This document shows, one piece after another, positions 4,046-38,229 of a stretch of 38,229 bases of DNA (position 1 is the first letter of the stretch; each line of letters begins with the position of its first letter). The position numbers and the translations under genes were made by a program. Below the pieces are notes generated by a model. The model did not search any database. It was not told where the DNA came from and saw nothing but the letters and a program-made list of their open reading frames with translations. Source of the DNA: Candidatus Blautia intestinavium. GTDB taxonomy: Bacteria; Bacillota; Clostridia; Lachnospirales; Lachnospiraceae. The stretch is from NCBI GenBank assembly GCA_019113745.1, contig DXGV01000004.1:1-38229 (forward strand). The letters run 5' to 3'.

Positions 4046-4106
4046 ATCCTTCTTTCTTTGTGGTTATAGAATACCAGTCCAGGCTTACATTCCGGTGAAA
4101 AAACAG

Positions 4107-4122
4107 CTTACAGATCTGTAAG
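4107..4122. promoter_or_regulatory. Presumed regulator operator in front of the ABC transporter genes
   Basis: CTTACAGATCTGTAAG is a perfect 16-bp palindrome overlapping the kinase stop codon and lying upstream of the ATPase gene. It matches the copy at 6117-6132 and the TnACA-N4-TGTAA pattern described for BceR-like regulators. A further half-site TGTAAG lies in the same gap toward the ATPase gene (minus strand). A TATTCT -10-like box appears about 33 bases downstream, but the -35 is poor, so the promoter is uncertain. Confidence 0.65.
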
Positions 4123-5334
4123 AAAAGATATGGTAAAAACGGAACCTCTGCCGGGAGCGCTTTCCACAAAAATCATTCCGCCCTGGTCTTCGATAATGGA
4201 TCTTGCAAGAGGAAGGCCAAGGCCGAAACCGGAGGAGGAAGAATGTCTGCTCCGGTAAAAACGCTTAAAAATATGCGGAAGGTCTTCGGGAGCAATTCCC
4301 TCTCCTGTGTCTGCTACAGCCAGCCGGAAAAGTCCCGGGGAAGCTTTCCAGCGGACAGTGACGGTATCTCCGGCGCAGGTGTGGTCCAGAGCGTTTTTGA
4401 TCAGATTGCTCAGAGCCTCCTGTGTCCAGCCCGGATCACAGAAAAGCAGAGAGTCTGCATCCCCTTCAAAAAGCAGGGATTTTTGTTCAAGACAGGCTCT
4501 TGTCACAAGATCGCCCGCCGCCTTTTTGACCATCGCCGCCACAGAACAGTTTTCTCTGTGAAAAGGAATACTTCCGGCGTCCAGACGCGTCATCTTTAAA
4601 AGAGTCAGGATCAGCTGCTCCATACGGTTCAGCGAAGCTTCCGCTTTTTCAGAAAAAGTTTTTACAGTTTCCGCATTATCAGGCTCCTGAAGGATGATAT
4701 TAAGATAAAGCTTCAAGGCTGCCACAGGCGTTTTCAGTTGATGCGAGATATCGGAGATGGTATCTTTCAGGAATTCTTTCGCCTTATGTTCAGAGCTGTT
4801 TTTCGCCTGCAGAGCGGAGGCAAGCTGTTCCACAGAGAAAAACAGCTGATAAAGGACGCCTGTCTCATCAGAAGGAAGATGATTCTGGAAATTTCCCTCT
4901 GAAAATTCTGCAATGATGTCCGCCGCCCTCTGAAAAAGACGCTCTCTGGCTTTCAGAAAATATACTGTGCCAAAAAGAAGCAGGACTCCGGCGGCTGCGG
5001 CAATAAAAAGAGAGAGAAGGAGAAACAGAAGAGCGCTCCGAAAGAGAAGGGGATCTGCAGTAAACGGCATATCCGCGCCATATCCGGCCGCGGTCAGAAA
5101 ATCGGCGCCGCTCTGGGAAACCGTATTGTTTTTCAGGGCGGAAGCAATAATGTCCGGGGAAATATTCCGGCTCAGAAGATAGGAGGAAACAGTTTCTCTT
5201 TGACGGAGAAGAAGCTGCGCTGACCAGGAGAGATGATTCCATGAAAGAAAAACAGCGGCGCACAGAAAAAAGCCTGCCGCGCACAGGACAAAGAAAAAAT
5301 ATCTGCGGCACTGTCTGTCTCTGAGAAAACTCAT
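4108..5334 (-). CDS. Sensor histidine kinase of the Bce-like module
   Basis: The 408-residue protein has two membrane segments (about 12-32 and 98-124) enclosing a short extracellular loop of about 65 residues. A HAMP-like linker and the HisKA box SDISHQLKTPVAAL follow, with phospho-accepting His near residue 198. The ATPase motifs are NLIKNALDHT (N), DTGEGIAPEDLPHIFKRF (G1) and GFGLGLPLA (G2). It should phosphorylate the regulator encoded just upstream; the two genes overlap by four bases. Classical BceS kinases have almost no extracellular loop, so this one may sense a ligand itself as well as, or instead of, through the transporter. Its stop codon lies inside the palindromic operator at 4107-4122. 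Confidence 0.93.
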   Translation of the reverse strand: MSFLRDRQCRRYFFFVLCAAGFFLCAAVFLSWNHLSWSAQLLLRQRETVSSYLLSRNISPDIIASALKNNTVSQSGADFLTAAGYGADMPFTADPLLFRSALLFLLLSLFIAAAAGVLLLFGTVYFLKARERLFQRAADIIAEFSEGNFQNHLPSDETGVLYQLFFSVEQLASALQAKNSSEHKAKEFLKDTISDISHQLKTPVAALKLYLNIILQEPDNAETVKTFSEKAEASLNRMEQLILTLLKMTRLDAGSIPFHRENCSVAAMVKKAAGDLVTRACLEQKSLLFEGDADSLLFCDPGWTQEALSNLIKNALDHTCAGDTVTVRWKASPGLFRLAVADTGEGIAPEDLPHIFKRFYRSRHSSSSGFGLGLPLARSIIEDQGGMIFVESAPGRGSVFTISFLTDL

Positions 5335-6038
5335 TTTGATTCCTCCTTCCAGCGGTACCCGAAGCCACGGACTGTAAGCAGATATTCCGGAGAGGAGGGA
5401 ACCGGTTCAATTTTTTCGCGAAGACGTCGGATATATACAGAAAGGGTATTGTTGTCTACAAAGCTGCCGTTTCCATCCCAGAGAGCGTCCAGGATCGCTT
5501 CTCTTGTAAGAAGCTGGCCAGGGTGTCTGAGAAAAAGACAGAGAAGGCGGTACTCTGCAGGAGTAAGCTCCAGGATTTTTCCATTAAGGCTGACCGTACC
5601 GGAGGCAAGATCAGCCGTAACAGGCCCTGAGCGCAGAACAGTGGAAATTTCTGGCGCTCCGTCGCTGCGGCGGAGCAGGGCGCGTATCCGGGAACAGAGC
5701 TCCCCAAGGCGGAAAGGCTTAACCATATAATCGTCGCCGCCTCCGTCCAGACCCCGGATAATATTTACTTCCTCGTCCAGAGCGGTAAGAAAGAGGATTG
5801 GAACGCGGCTCCCGCTCTTCCTTACTTTTTCGCAGACCTCATAGCCTGTTCCGTCCGGCAAAGTGATGTCCAGGATCAGAAGATGGTAAACAGAATTATT
5901 TAGACGCTGAAAAGCCTCAGAGACGGACGACGCCACATCAATGTGAAATCCGTTTCTGCTCAGAGCGTAACTGAGGCCGTCAATAAGGCCGGGATCATCT
6001 TCCAGAAGAAGAATTTTAGCAGATGTATTTTTTTCCAA
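5331..6038 (-). CDS. OmpR-family response regulator of the Bce-like module
   Basis: The 235-residue product has an N-terminal receiver with acidic pair LLLEDD, phospho-acceptor Asp57 in LLILDITLPDG and the conserved Lys in YMVKPF. A C-terminal winged helix ends in NTLSVYIRRLREKIE and TVRGFGYRW. It is the first gene of a minus-strand operon regulator-kinase-ATPase-permease. Translation starts at a TTG codon eight bases after GGAGG; no ATG is available. It probably binds the CTTACA-N4-TGTAAG palindromes in front of its own promoter and in front of the transporter genes. Divergence from pstS (266-base gap) could suggest a PhoB role, but the transporter linkage and the operator type argue against that. 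Confidence 0.93.
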   Translation of the reverse strand: MEKNTSAKILLLEDDPGLIDGLSYALSRNGFHIDVASSVSEAFQRLNNSVYHLLILDITLPDGTGYEVCEKVRKSGSRVPILFLTALDEEVNIIRGLDGGGDDYMVKPFRLGELCSRIRALLRRSDGAPEISTVLRSGPVTADLASGTVSLNGKILELTPAEYRLLCLFLRHPGQLLTREAILDALWDGNGSFVDNNTLSVYIRRLREKIEPVPSSPEYLLTVRGFGYRWKEESK

Positions 6039-6304: not shown

Positions 6305-7291
6305 ATGAAGAAAAAATTTTTAGCCATGACGTTAGCATCTGTTATGACACTTGGAATGGTATCAGGAGTAACCTGCAGCGCTGCAGAAGCAGAGGATCTC
6401 AGCGGAACGATCACAGCCGCCGGTTCATCGGCGTTAAAGCCGCTGGCAGATGACGCGGCCAACGCTTTCAGTGAAAAATATCCGGATGTTGCGATTACAA
6501 TAGACGCCGGAGGATCAGGCGAAGGACTGAAACAGGTGGCGGAAGGTACAGTTGATATTGGAAACTCTGATGTGGAAGCCTCTGAAAAGCTTGACGCTGA
6601 CCAGGCAGGAGAGCTGGTAGATCATCAGGTATGTGTAATTACAATGGCTCCTATTGTTAATGAGGATGTAAAAGAAGGCGGCGTTACAGACCTGACAAAA
6701 GATCAGCTGATCTCCATTTTTACCGGCAAGACAACAAACTGGAGCGAGGTAGGCGGTCCGGATGAAGATATCGTACTTGTAACAAGACCTACTTCTTCCG
6801 GAACAAGAGCAACCTTCCAGAAATATGCTCTGGATGGGGCAGAAGAAGCTTCCAACGAATCTATGGAAACAGATGATTCGGGCGTGCTTCTTCAGAACGT
6901 AAAGGATACAAAGGGAGCGATCGGTTATGTCGCGCTGTCTTATCTGGTAGACGACCCCGGCGTTGCAACAGTATCTATCGACGGAGTGGAGCCGACTCTT
7001 GAAAATACCTATAACGGCACTTATCCGGTTTGGACTTTTGAGCATATGTATACAAAAGGAGAGCCGAATGATGTAACGGGAGCGTTCCTTGATTTCATCA
7101 TGTCAGATGAATACAGCGATCAGATGGAAAGCCTCGGATACGGCGTTTCTTCCAAGATGACAACAACAGAGCATGCAGGTGAAGCCGCAGACGGTGAGAC
7201 TACAGACGACGCGTCTGCCGAGAATGCAGACGATGCTTCAACAGAAGCGACACCGGAAGCTACAGCAGAGCCCACAGAGGCAGCAAAATAA
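6305..7291 (+). CDS. pstS: Phosphate ABC transporter substrate-binding protein PstS
   Basis: The 328-residue product starts with a signal peptide (MKKKFLAMTLASVMTLGMVSG). The PstS fold follows: the phosphate-binding TAAGSSALKPL loop, DAGGSGEGLKQV, the IGNSDVEAS segment and RPTSSGTRATF. It captures phosphate outside the cell for PstCAB. Two features are odd. The region around the only early Cys (GVTCS) is a poor lipobox, so lipid anchoring is doubtful. The last 40 residues, from about 289, form an acidic Ala/Glu/Asp/Thr tail that is not part of the binding fold. The RBS AAGGAGG lies 9 bases upstream. It is the first gene of the pst operon and is followed by a terminator-like attenuator. Confidence 0.94.
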   Translation: MKKKFLAMTLASVMTLGMVSGVTCSAAEAEDLSGTITAAGSSALKPLADDAANAFSEKYPDVAITIDAGGSGEGLKQVAEGTVDIGNSDVEASEKLDADQAGELVDHQVCVITMAPIVNEDVKEGGVTDLTKDQLISIFTGKTTNWSEVGGPDEDIVLVTRPTSSGTRATFQKYALDGAEEASNESMETDDSGVLLQNVKDTKGAIGYVALSYLVDDPGVATVSIDGVEPTLENTYNGTYPVWTFEHMYTKGEPNDVTGAFLDFIMSDEYSDQMESLGYGVSSKMTTTEHAGEAADGETTDDASAENADDASTEATPEATAEPTEAAK

Positions 7292-7377: not shown

Positions 7378-8301
7378 ATGAATAGTACGAAACAAAAAGG
7401 AATGTTCCAGAAAGAATATGCGTTCAGGGGAATCGCGGTTTTGTGCGGTATTTTCGTGATCGTCCTGACAATCACCATCGGGGCATTCCTTGTTTATAAA
7501 GGATCCGATACATTTTTGAAATTCGGACATACCCTGTGGGAATTTCTTGGTTCCACTCAATGGGAGCCTACAGATAACGCGGAAGGCGGGGGAAGCGTCG
7601 GCGCGCTGATCTTTGTTGTCGGCTCCCTGGCGACCTGTGGACTGGCGCTTCTGATTGCAACACCTTTTGGCCTGGGTTCAGCAATTTTTATGACGGAGAT
7701 TTCAAAAAAATTCGGAGAAAAATTTTACCGCCCAGTTGTGGAAATTTTTGCGGGAATTCCCTCTGTTGTATACGGATGGGTAGGTCTGACAGTACTTGTA
7801 CCGTTTATTAAAACTGTTTTTCACAGACAGGTAGGACATTCCGTACTGGCGGCGGGAATCGTGCTTGCGATCATGATCTTCCCGACGATCACCAGTATGT
7901 CCGCAGACGCTATATCTGCCGTTCCGGACTCCTGCAGAAAGGCCGCCTATGGTCTGGGCTCCACCAGATGGCAGACAATTTACCGCATCGTGGTGCCCGC
8001 CGCGGCTCCGGGGATCATTTCCGGCGTGATTCTGGGGCTTGCAAGAGCTTTTGGAGAGGCGCTGGCGGTGGCGATGGTGATCGGCCAGACGACGGCTCTT
8101 CCGGAAAATATATTTTCCACAACAAAAACACTGACTACAGAGATTGCTTCTCAGATGGGAAACGCCATGGAAGGCGGAGAAATGAAATCAGCGCTTTGGA
8201 CAATGGCGCTTCTGCTGTTTCTGATATCGCTGCTTTTTATCAGCCTGATTCATTTTGTTTCCGCAAGAGGAGAAAAACAGAAAGGGGGCGGTGAGTCATG
8301 A
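7378..8301 (+). CDS. pstC: Phosphate ABC transporter permease PstC
   Basis: The 307-residue membrane protein has an N-terminal membrane segment (about 20-42) and a periplasmic stretch. A binding-protein-dependent permease domain with about five more segments follows. The family EAA-like loop is seen around CRKAAYGLGSTRWQTIYRIVVPAAAPG (about residues 182-208). Conserved FAGIPSVVYGWVG and RAFGEALAVAMVIG also match PstC. It forms the membrane channel with PstA. Its stop overlaps the pstA start by four bases. The RBS GGGGAAAG precedes the ATG. Confidence 0.95.
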   Translation: MNSTKQKGMFQKEYAFRGIAVLCGIFVIVLTITIGAFLVYKGSDTFLKFGHTLWEFLGSTQWEPTDNAEGGGSVGALIFVVGSLATCGLALLIATPFGLGSAIFMTEISKKFGEKFYRPVVEIFAGIPSVVYGWVGLTVLVPFIKTVFHRQVGHSVLAAGIVLAIMIFPTITSMSADAISAVPDSCRKAAYGLGSTRWQTIYRIVVPAAAPGIISGVILGLARAFGEALAVAMVIGQTTALPENIFSTTKTLTTEIASQMGNAMEGGEMKSALWTMALLLFLISLLFISLIHFVSARGEKQKGGGES

Positions 8302-35814: not shown

Positions 35815-35823
35815 ACTGTGTCC

Positions 35824-36153
35824 ATGGAAAATTGCAATATGAACCGTCCCTGTGCCCGCCCGTATCAGGCTACCTGCGGAATGGCAAAGCCGTGCGGGGC
35901 CGGACATACGGCGGGAAGACAGTTTCCATACAATTCCGAAAGACAGCCTCTGCCCTGTGCCTGCCGTATGCCCGGCTCTTCTTCAAATAACAGGGAAATG
36001 TATGAACACGCAGATCATATGGAACCTGCGATGGCCTATGTTCCCTGTCAGGAATTTACAAATACCTACGATCTGTGCTACGCCTTAAACGTGGGAACTA
36101 TCTTTCCTCAGTTGTGCAAACCCTTTTGTGGAAAGAGAGGTGCCCGGAGATGA
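35824..36153 (+). CDS. cotJA: Spore coat protein CotJA, Cys-rich variant
   Basis: The 110-residue protein has a C-terminal part matching CotJA (MAYVPCQEFTNTYDLCYALNVGTIFPQLCKPFCG). The N-terminal half is a long extension rich in Cys, Pro and Arg, absent from the shorter Bacillus protein. In all there are ten or so Cys. It belongs to the inner spore-coat CotJ complex. I chose ATG 35824; an in-frame GTG at 35818 is less likely. Its stop overlaps the cotJB start (ATGA). Confidence 0.85.
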   Translation: MENCNMNRPCARPYQATCGMAKPCGAGHTAGRQFPYNSERQPLPCACRMPGSSSNNREMYEHADHMEPAMAYVPCQEFTNTYDLCYALNVGTIFPQLCKPFCGKRGARR

Positions 36154-36434
36154 TGTATCGAAATCAGCCTGACAAAAGGAATCAGCTTCTTCAGAAAATC
36201 AACGAGGTCAGTTTCGCGCTGGACGATATCCTGCTGTATCTGGATACGCATCCCTGCTGTGAAAAGGGTATGGCTTATTACAGAGAACAGGCCGAAAAAA
36301 GGAAAAAGTTAATGAAGGAATATGCGGAATGTTACGGTCCTCTGACCATCGACGATGCGCTTGCGTCCGACGGAAATACCTGGAAATGGATGGAACAGCC
36401 GTTTCCATGGGAAAGGGAAGGAGGGTGCAAATAG
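36150..36434 (+). CDS. cotJB: Spore coat protein CotJB
   Basis: The 94-residue protein has the helical CotJB domain: LLQKINEVSFALDDILLYLDTHP, AMAYYREQ-like GMAYYREQAEKRKKLMKEY, ending CYGPLTIDDA...WKWMEQPFPWE. It is co-translated with cotJA through ATGA, and cotJC follows after three bases. An in-frame ATG at 36153 is an alternative start. It is a component of the spore coat made in the mother cell. Confidence 0.92.
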   Translation: MMYRNQPDKRNQLLQKINEVSFALDDILLYLDTHPCCEKGMAYYREQAEKRKKLMKEYAECYGPLTIDDALASDGNTWKWMEQPFPWEREGGCK

Positions 36435-36437
36435 TTT

Positions 36438-37148
36438 ATGTGGAATTATGAAAAACGATTACAGTATCCTGTGAATATTAAAACCCCTAATGCAAAAATC
36501 GCCCAGTTTATCATGAGTCAGTATGGTGGCCCGGACGGTGAGATCGGAGCCTCCATGCGTTACCTGTCCCAGCGTTTTTCCATGCCGAACCGTATGGCAA
36601 CGGCGGTGCTGAATGACGTCGCCACAGAAGAGCTGGCTCATCTGGAAATGGTATCTACTATCGTTCATCAGCTTACCCAGGACCTTTCTATGGAAGAGAT
36701 TGAAAAGAGCGGCTTCGGTCCCTACTACATTGACCACGGAAACGGGATCTGGCCCCAGGCGGCAGGAGGAATTCCCTTTAACGCCTGCGAATTTCAGAGT
36801 AAGGGAGATCCTCTTACAGACCTGTTCGAGGATCTTGCAGCAGAACAGAAAGCCCGCGCCACCTATGACAATATTCTCCGTGTTGTCCGGGATATTCCGG
36901 AGATCGCGGATCCCATCAGATTCCTCAGAGCAAGGGAAGTGGTGCATTTCCAGCGTTTCGGTGAAGCAAACCGGGAAGATTGTAGTAAAATTCCAAAGGC
37001 GCGGAAAACCCACAAATTCAGCACTTTTGGAAAGTCACTATCAATCAGAACATTTGCAGGACATAGGCATAAGCCGCCCTATCTGCTGCTATACCTCAAA
37101 ATGAAGATAATACATGAGATAGGACAAGCTGCTTTTTCCTACAACTGA
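36438..37148 (+). pseudogene. cotJC: Spore coat protein CotJC (manganese-catalase-like), 3' end replaced by foreign sequence
   Basis: The first about 177 residues are a normal CotJC ferritin-like manganese catalase domain. They include MWNYEKRLQYPV, QYGGPDGEIGASMRYLSQR, the metal-ligand helices with TEELAHLEMVSTIVH, AAEQKARATYDNIL and REVVHFQRFGEA. The normal family end, about 15-25 more residues after this point, is missing. Instead the frame runs through about 60 unrelated residues (NREDCSKIPKARKTHKF... to YN) to 37148. The breakpoint is near 36966-36970 and coincides with the edge of an element that carries a replication-initiator-like gene. All metal ligands are kept, so the truncated protein might still fold. 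Confidence 0.8.
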
Positions 37149-37164
37149 ATATTGAACCGCAAAG

Positions 37165-37213
37165 GCGGCGTTTCCCACTTCCCACCCGGAAGAACAGGAA
37201 CGCCGCTTTTTTT
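37165..37213 (+). terminator. Terminator at the left end of the mobile element
   Basis: GCGGCGTTTCC (37165-37175) pairs with GGAACGCCGC (37197-37206) with one extra T, followed by seven T. It lies just after the stop of the chimeric cotJC frame. It would end cotJ transcription and insulate the element. Confidence 0.9.
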
Positions 37214-37223
37214 ATGCCCTCAT

Positions 37224-37335
37224 GTTACGCAGTAGGGGCAAAAAGAGCCTTGATTTATGCGGTTTCCAGAGCGCGGAACCGGGGAAGCAAGGGAAAGATA
37301 CCTTTCCCCTCAAAATCCGCGTTCTACTGCGTAAC
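37224..37335 (+). repeat. 11-bp inverted repeat in the leader of the replication-initiator gene
   Basis: GTTACGCAGTA (37224-37234) is the exact reverse complement of TACTGCGTAAC (37325-37335). Between them lies a further stem, GGGAAAG-ATAC-CTTTCCC. The arms bracket the whole leader, ending about 30 bases before the start codon. A replication or copy-control structure, or a termination signal for an upstream module, is possible. Confidence 0.65.
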
Positions 37336-37363
37336 AAATCCACAGCAAAGGAGCTGATAAGCT

Positions 37364-38229
37364 ATGGCAGTTTTCAGAGTGGAACGGAACACGGGATATA
37401 CCGTAATGAGCAACCACCACTTACGCAACAAGGAACTGACCTTGAAAGCAAAGGGCTTGTTGTCGCAAATGCTGTCTTTGCCGGAGGATTGGGACTATAC
37501 CCTTGCGGGGCTGTCCCATATCAACCGGGAAAGTATTGACGCTATCCGTACCGCCGTTTGGGAGCTTGAAAAAGCCGGATATATCACAAGACGGCAGGGA
37601 CGCGACGAGAAAGGCAAAATGACCGCCATTGAGTACACCATTTACGAGCAGCCACAGCCCCCGGAGTTGGAAAAGCCGATATTGGAAAATCCAACAGCGG
37701 GTAATCCGGTATTGGAAAATCCGACAACGGGAAATCCGACGTCGGAAAATCCAATGCAAATAATTAAAGAAGAACAAAAGACTAATCAATCAAAAAAAGA
37801 AAAATCAAATACAGATACACAAAGTACCCATTCCATTCCTATCCATTCCCCTAACCCCTCTCCTTTTGAGGGCGCGGCACAGCCGCCGGAACGGAAACGA
37901 AAGGAACCGAACGACGCATACCGGGTATATGAGGAAATCATCAAGGACAATATCTGCTATGACATTCTCAAACAGGATATGCCCTACGACCATGACCGGA
38001 TAGATGAAATCGTTGACCTTATCCTTGAAACGGTCTGCACAAGGCGCAGGACAATCCGTATCGCCGGGGACGACTACCCGGCAGAGCTTGTGAAGTCAAA
38101 GTTTATGAAACTGGACAGCGAACATATCCGGTTCGTCCTTGACTGTATGCGGGAGAACACCACGAAGATACGCAACATCAAGCAGTACCTACGGGCGGCA
38201 CTGTTCAACGCGCCGTCCACTATCGGCAA
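37364..38229 (+). CDS. Helix-turn-helix replication-initiator-like protein with DUF6017 domain (partial)
   Basis: At least 288 residues; the frame is still open at the window end. The N-terminal winged-helix region (VMSNHHLRNKELTLKAKGLL, HINRESIDAIRTAVWELEKAGYI) resembles phage and ICE replisome organisers. A linker with repeated ENP/GNP triplets (about 107-130) and a Lys/Ser/Thr-rich stretch follow. The C-terminal DUF6017-like domain has AYRVYEEIIKDNICYDIL and RRRTIRIAGDDYPAELVKSKF. Such proteins are carried by many conjugative elements in Lachnospiraceae and probably act in element replication. The RBS AAAGGAG leads to the ATG at 37364. Confidence 0.85.
   Translation, partial: MAVFRVERNTGYTVMSNHHLRNKELTLKAKGLLSQMLSLPEDWDYTLAGLSHINRESIDAIRTAVWELEKAGYITRRQGRDEKGKMTAIEYTIYEQPQPPELEKPILENPTAGNPVLENPTTGNPTSENPMQIIKEEQKTNQSKKEKSNTDTQSTHSIPIHSPNPSPFEGAAQPPERKRKEPNDAYRVYEEIIKDNICYDILKQDMPYDHDRIDEIVDLILETVCTRRRTIRIAGDDYPAELVKSKFMKLDSEHIRFVLDCMRENTTKIRNIKQYLRAALFNAPSTIG

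Follow-up and report, generated by a model that had tools for sequence, protein, structure and literature searches.

Does a mobile element that splits a spore-coat gene destroy it, or is the gene made whole again when it is needed? The question is raised by one end of a 38,229 bp stretch of DNA from Candidatus Blautia intestinavium (hereafter the window), which is the entire contig C5 of a genome in 60 contigs that is 82.7% complete. There, the cotJC gene of a cotJ operon is interrupted at codon 177. A first-pass annotation, made from the letters of the window, proposed that an element uses cotJC as its attachment gene and either disables it or is removed during sporulation. The attachment to cotJC is borne out by both ends of the element, a shared core, a large serine recombinase (LSR) whose tail lies beside attR and in-frame restoration of the gene. 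Furthermore, it seems likely that the window element and its kin in other genomes are developmentally excised intervening elements of the skin type, which dock in cotJC and leave it in the mother cell.

The CotJC of the window matches the Pfam family Mn_catalase over residues 1-178 only and is 96.6% identical, over residues 1-179, to the intact CotJC of a relative of the same genus (G012). It departs from its intact relatives after VHFQRFGEA, at positions 36966-36968, and is followed by unrelated residues, much as the annotation had described. The displaced end is longer than the 15-25 codons then estimated: since the rejoined open reading frame (ORF) has 208 amino acids (aa), about 31 codons are displaced. 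As the window is all of contig C5, the element continues past its end. Its other end lies on contig C35 of the same genome, which is matched by the cotJC 3' end and downstream DNA of G012 (locus L132). C35 opens with a match to the last 48 residues of the LSR from a similar element (L057; 65% identity), and the order on this contig is LSR tail, stop codon, attR, cotJC 3' end and downstream region. The missing 3' end, the adjacent recombinase and the shared core that the annotation had proposed to look for are thus all found on one contig, and the absence of a 3' fragment, which would have refuted its proposal, did not come about. The attL site reads CGTTTCGGtGAAGC at 36954-36967 and the attR site CGTTTCGGgGAAGC at C35:211-224; their sole difference is silent (Gly), and joining the flanks yields a cotJC of 208 codons. 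The search for cotJC in the window assembly yielded no more than the 5' piece on C5 and the 3' piece on C35, and no intact copy; the genome does have a Spo0A gene. The window pair was scored without an LSR, because only the tail is present and no recombinase exceeded the length limit of the search. Inverted half-sites around a short core, a host attB and an LSR beside an att end, the features of LSR-type integration, are all present, the symmetry of the half-sites being judged by eye and for the window's type of site (site 4 below) only. By eye, the two arms of the element outside the core (CGGGAAGATTGTAGTAAA and a near inverted repeat of it) appear to form an LSR-type attP, and a similar pair of half-sites exists in L041 and L057. 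The gene cotJC is the attB of this mobile element, which was integrated by an LSR.

The same architecture recurs in other genomes. The 5' 176 residues of CotJC were used as a query and the best 80 of 579 relatives, corresponding to 80 genome-contig loci, were fetched. At least 10 of these loci break after FGEA (L041, L049, L055, L057, L059, L085, L090, L094, L110 and L113), and in three of the 10 (L041, L057 and L094) the stretch reaches the cotJC 3' end 4.1-8.7 kb further on. Relatives with a chimeric C-terminus and no element had been named as a sign against the annotation; the three loci with a visible right end all have an element-type end and a 3' fragment. A chimeric C-terminus inherited as an element-free variant was not seen at these loci, the other seven right ends lying beyond reach. 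Two att types seem to be represented, one by the FGEA-N/D/K-RE-D/H-CS tails and the other by the FGEA tails of L090, L094 and L113. Among 40 relatives, genomes of the same genus split cotJC at other positions.

A wider draw from the family comprised 397 genomes, 243 of them with a CotJC match. The 115 that had a partial best match, or one ranking below the matches listed, were searched again: 78 have both halves of cotJC at one or more sites, 23 have one half only and 14 have no split. The other 128 have a near full-length best match and fell outside this second search, so that 78 of 243 is a lower bound. Genomes with both halves number 31 at codon ~33 (site 1), 35 at ~65 (site 2), 14 at ~137 (site 3) and 11 at ~178 (site 4), and the gene is split at two sites in 13 genomes. 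With the addition of G114, which falls outside the rule used for the count of 78, contig order was analysed in 79 genomes. At least one junction pair lies on a single contig in 51 of them and none does in 28; all 56 single-contig pairs have the correct order and strand, at distances of 1.6-117.6 kb (median 8.8 kb). A misassembled junction or a binning artefact could be suspected from those 28 genomes and from the window genome, a fragmented metagenome-assembled genome, but this explanation is barely credible and was rejected given the consistency of the 56 pairs. The same architecture is found in many independent assemblies, including the one-contig genomes G310, G321, G358, G430 and G086, and the LSRs are specific to the insertion site. 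Beyond the family, partial CotJC matches at the same positions occur in a draw from the order (80 of 146 genomes with a CotJC match) and in one from the class (76 of 118 with a match). Triple splits were found in other families: G508 and G040 have four pieces each, G482 has the same pieces by match range, and G508 reveals a sixth insertion site near codon 129. G213 carries LSRs of three site families, and its middle cotJC piece was not found.

Some loci have a more irregular structure. In L069 (10001-12058), another attR-like junction, whose cotJC 3' end is degenerate, lies ~1.3 kb downstream of a full-length cotJC and is possibly the scar of a lost or displaced element. G100 has two cotJC 3' pieces from codon 59 on one strand of C68 (14660-15085 and 18197-18625), 3.1 kb apart, for which tandem accretion of elements at one site is possible. 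In G617 (C16:63344-63965), pieces 1-63 and 58-209 are directly adjacent at the position of site 2, which could be the scar of an imprecise excision or a frameshift.

An LSR was found in the element in 42 of 43 structures, the seven doubly split ones having two each. It usually lies less than 0.5 kb from an att end (0.6-0.9 kb in G070 and G348), and in G303 the copy adjoining attR is partial. All four LSRs checked (sites 1, 2b, 3 and 4) have the Resolvase and Recombinase domains, and each family alignment has an invariant serine at the place of the catalytic motif. When 49 LSRs are placed in a tree, those of site 1 (16), site 3 (7) and site 4 (10) each form one clade with 99-100% support, and those of site 2 form two clades (10 and 6). 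The typical cores at site 2 also differ, lying around TAGGTAC (codons 61-63) or around GAAGAA/GAACT (codons 64-66); therefore, there are five LSR families at five places. The LSR of the codon-129 site is closest to the second site-2 family. Upstream of the LSRs, where a multiple alignment was mostly unreadable but pointed to small ORFs, such ORFs are family-specific: they form one cluster of nine in site 4, one of seven in site 3 and two of three in site 2a. The four of them that were tried have no Pfam match above the cut-off; they are putative directionality factors. An ORF of G315 with the composite motif described below was considered as a site-1 partner and set aside, as clear homologues are absent from the other loci available. 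Separately, the G303 element (L209) contains one full-length and two partial LSR ORFs (oriented 4086-5645, 6685-7095 and 7673-8245) with 81% and 76% DNA similarity to the site-3 element of G009, which suggests repeated insertion and decay at the same site.

What these recombinases move is varied. The 39 kb insert of G004 has matches to terminase, portal, major head, tape measure and endolysin proteins, as well as a SIR2-like protein, and is by its gene content a tailed prophage. The inserts of G302 (25 kb, with an AAA_10 protein at 526.7 bits and a lysozyme/NlpC protein) and G388 (28 kb, with a ParA-type ATPase and an NlpC protein) are read here as conjugative-like. By eye, serine dehydratase-like ORFs were seen in G023 and a phosphate-transporter-like ORF in G009. 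The inserts of G296 (2.4 kb) and G241 (2.2 kb) have space for little besides the LSR. G302 and G213 belong to different genera; a 1.6 kb element is 96.6% identical between them and the adjoining cotJC piece 68.5%, from which we conclude that a recent transfer across genera reached the same site. Searches of viral contigs with three LSR families as queries gave at least 173 loci, at least 25 of which (two of them on one contig) have a cotJC piece at E 1e-3 or better; the loci without such a piece mean little because their flanks are short.

Joining the flanks at the conserved codon restores an ORF of 199-231 aa in 40 of 43 structures, the other three (G348, G015 and G213) being without a piece in hand. 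Seven of the 40 require two joins (G293, G302, G388, G312, G204, G322 and G299), and the triple splits of G508 and G040 rejoin to 200 aa each. The core measures 0-14 bp in the score-based join, and 5-14 bp or none in a search for the longest run. The pN/pS ratio (nonsynonymous to synonymous change) of the detached regions is 0.16-0.33, compared with 0.21-0.35 for the same regions in intact genes, although much of this divergence may predate the insertions. A more direct view is given by G052 and G376, which have a common insertion with 96.8% and 96.6% identity on either side: their joined cotJC differs by 20 synonymous and 0 nonsynonymous changes (nine and 0 in the detached 3' piece), and their LSR by ~27 synonymous and 11 nonsynonymous ones.

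These results bear on two other explanations. In the first, the elements are ordinary parasites and cotJC, conserved but dispensable, is a safe harbour for LSR elements and dead in its carriers. The prophage and conjugative-like inserts, the recent arrival of some elements and the presence of both intact and split cotJC in one genus would agree with it, and CotJC mutants reportedly have mild or no defects (PMC11222575, PMC12122855). Nevertheless, all 40 complete joined genes are free of stops and frameshifts, the detached regions are about as constrained as intact ones, the shared split gene has changed at synonymous positions only and elements with little besides an LSR have been retained, so that we regard plain parasitism as unlikely. 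In the second, the chimeric tail gives a working CotJC variant and excision is unneeded. This might be imagined for site 4, the window included, where only ~31 C-terminal residues are replaced. Yet sites 1, 2 and 3 leave just ~33, 65 and 137 codons on the 5' side, the tails vary between elements and the detached 3' pieces remain constrained; we give this idea almost no weight.

A developmental excision of the elements would have to precede the expression of cotJC. In Clostridioides difficile, cotJ-type operons are lowered in a sigK mutant (PMC3789822), and a sigma-K-type rule (AC-N16/17-CATAnnnT) finds a match upstream of cotJ in 20 of 29 cases (shuffles 2.7), compared with nine of 100 other ORFs (shuffles 4.0). 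For the LSRs, a sigma-E-type rule (ATA-N16-18-CATAnn(n)T) applied to at most 450 bp gives 23 of 47 (shuffles 3.3), and 11 of 100 for other ORFs (shuffles 4.7). Extended to 600 bp, it gives 28 of 50 LSRs and six of 50 on the opposite strand, while other ORFs have 31 and 40 of 285, respectively. By family, the motif precedes 8/8 LSRs of site 3, 10/11 of site 4, 4/9 of site 2a and 2/5 of site 2b. A refined motif, in which the spacer also holds a GKACWWG-like box, has 20 occurrences in 669 kb, against a mean of 0.55 in 20 shuffles, and 17 of the 20 are upstream of an LSR on the same strand, mostly just before a small ORF. The box resembles the core of the SpoIIID site (GGACAAG). In Bacillus subtilis, genes that SpoIIID represses generally have sites for it that overlap the promoter (PMC517825), so the box may produce a pulse rather than activation.

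Retention of the frame, synonymous-only change in one shared split gene and predicted sigma-E-type promoters on part of the LSR operons suggest that excision takes place during sporulation. Alternatively, excision could be regulated independently of sporulation, phage or element induction of the active-lysogeny type restoring cotJC only occasionally. Some inserts are indeed phage-like or conjugative-like, and the site-1 LSRs, among the two largest site groups in the tree, have no promoter signal; the sigma-E-type promoters of the site-3, site-4 and part of the site-2a operons, and the small elements with space for little besides an LSR, make this alternative quite improbable.

The scenario that we favor, mother-cell excision, can be outlined as follows. 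The cotJC gene would be a common landing gene for at least five LSR families, plus the sixth site near codon 129, each at its own conserved codon. In the sporulating mother cell, the LSR, probably with the small partner encoded just upstream, would excise the element precisely and rebuild cotJC before the late sigma-K-type promoter acts, and this excision would be the reason why the elements persist. It is directly supported that the elements are inserted, have att sites and LSRs, recur, stack two or three deep, have moved between genera and leave a gene that can be rejoined in frame, and that one shared split gene has changed at synonymous positions only; we infer that excision occurs, that it is specific to the mother cell and that the small ORFs are directionality factors. 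With less assurance, we also lean towards a broader picture in which clostridial cotJC would consist of two to four DNA 'exons' whose intervening elements are all spliced out in each mother cell. At least five LSR families would have settled there independently, up to three of them under the same sigma-E-type switch including the spacer box, and the finding of phages, conjugative elements and LSR-only units at one site would thus make cotJC a developmentally gated dock.

Several observations weigh against mother-cell excision. The promoter evidence is uneven: site-1 LSRs have the motif in 4/17 cases on the sense strand and 5/17 on the antisense strand, and it is thin for site 2b and partial for site 2a. 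An initial scan of 200 bp upstream with a B. subtilis-type matrix found no enrichment at LSRs, and its positive control, cotJ, failed too; the looser rule over 450-600 bp replaced it. The refined motif was drawn up after hits had been seen and, as the LSRs within a family are related, the promoter counts are not independent. The site-4 attP pattern had 0 matches in the viral contigs, and no excised circle or empty-site read was seen. The test of selection after insertion comes from one species pair (G052/G376), a full-length CotJC copy is also present in 17 of the 78 split genomes and CotJC loss is reportedly harmless in B. subtilis (PMC12122855). The LSR ORFs are short in G358, G359 and G162 and lack the C-terminal half in G389 (L203) and G195 (L194), so that some elements may be stuck; such ORFs may be decaying or be excision-only forms. 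The joined ORF of G338 has no Met at the expected start, and the cores scored in the join are only 0-2 bp in several structures (a two-base crossover core suffices for LSRs). Finally, the bulk of the window element is absent from its 82.7% complete assembly.

To our knowledge, only a few isolated examples of sporulation intervening elements have been described. More generally, the elements of regulated gene integrity (TIGER) keep a gene inactive until they are excised, and cotJC is reportedly not in the list of that study. The closest parallel is skin in the sigK gene of B. subtilis and C. difficile, an LSR element inside a mother-cell gene that is excised to rebuild it, as we propose for cotJC. 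In B. subtilis, its recombinase gene spoIVCA depends on sigma-E and SpoIIID, and in C. difficile excision is timed by CD1234, a directionality factor that depends on sigma-E and SpoIIID (PMC5025042). Contrary to sigK, which encodes a sigma factor, cotJC is a structural coat gene, with five or six sites that have their own LSRs, up to three elements per gene and splits in 78 of 243 genomes. SPbeta in spsM of B. subtilis is a prophage in a spore-envelope gene that is excised in sporulation (PMC4191935), comparable to the G004 insert, whereas other cotJC inserts are conjugative-like or below phage size and several may share one gene. The gin element in gerE of Bacillus cereus ATCC10987 is not a phage and pairs LSRs with a short partner, GirX (42 aa), but has three LSRs in one element (PMC5595907), whereas cotJC elements mostly have one full-length LSR each and are stackable. 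The right end of the phi027 prophage of C. difficile lies near cotG, a cotJC homologue, but cotG is a whole 678-bp ORF downstream of attR and is unsplit (PMC11222575, PMC12122855).

The structural traits of the skin, spsM and gin elements, namely a split sporulation gene, halves in order, a shared core with frame restoration and an encoded LSR, are all found in cotJC, and by this analogy the cotJC elements most likely work in the same way. A literature search among open-licence papers found none on an element inside cotJC, nor on a multi-insertion architecture; what is new is the target gene, the scale on which it is split, the fact that five or six kinds of LSR converge on it and the stacking of elements. 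In a major gut family, cotJC is split in about one third of the genomes that have it, the elements of these various LSRs being inserted alone or in stacks of up to three. Such genomes supply many LSR/attB pairs and natural replicates for asking what makes sporulation genes a target, what sets the time of excision, whether several excisions in one gene follow an order and how parasites become harmless residents. They also call for caution, since the annotations of many gut genomes may list cotJC as broken or absent where CotJC may still be made.

The features of the window locus are collected in Table 1. The annotation had also reported a terminator and an ICE-type (integrative and conjugative element) replication gene. 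A hairpin with a T-run and a gene with HTH_36 and DUF6017 domains are indeed there; 'ICE-type' is a tentative label, because it draws on contig C20 of the same genome, where a gene 69% similar to the HTH_36/DUF6017 gene adjoins ORFs called conjugation-like by eye. A left-end stretch of the element (37118-37262) is 86-87% identical to L399:3922-4060 (G479) and L027:1759-1853 (G034). It follows a site-4 attL in the window and a site-3 attL in G479 and G034, which may reflect an exchange of LSR modules on a single element backbone between sites in cotJC.

Table 1. Features of the cotJ operon and of the left end of the element in the window
Feature	Position	Strand	Remarks
cotJA	35818..36153	+	Pfam PF11007 CotJA, 64.6 bits
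cotJB	36150..36434	+	Pfam PF12652 CotJB, 102 bits; start at ATG 36150/36153 by eye
cotJC 5' piece	36438..36967	+	codons 1-176 and first two bases of codon 177
attL core	36954..36967	+	CGTTTCGG common with attR at C35:211-218, then one mismatch, then common GAAGC
Element half-site CGGGAAGATTGTAGTAAA	36972..36989	+	near-perfect inverted repeat of the half-site left of attR on C35; by eye
Unrelated C-terminal tail of the chimeric ORF, element-encoded	36968..37148	+	
Terminator-like hairpin GCGGCGTT / AACGCCGC with T-run, within the element	37165..37213	+	by eye
Element gene with HTH_36 and DUF6017 domains, truncated by the contig end	37364..38227	+	Pfam

Spo0A was used as a control in the 78 split genomes: 77 have a match, near full length in 69 and partial in eight. 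It was rejected as a second split gene, since seven of the partial matches are short forms, with no LSR seen in the DNA around them that was read, and the eighth is a contig break. These seven short Spo0A-type proteins (L403-L408 and L410, in G303, G307, G372, G100, G312, G043 and G388) come from genomes in which no full-length Spo0A matched at E 1e-15. They have kept the DNA-binding domain and lost most of the receiver domain, and in six of the seven, G303 being the exception, the gene adjoins one that by eye is glycogen synthase-like.
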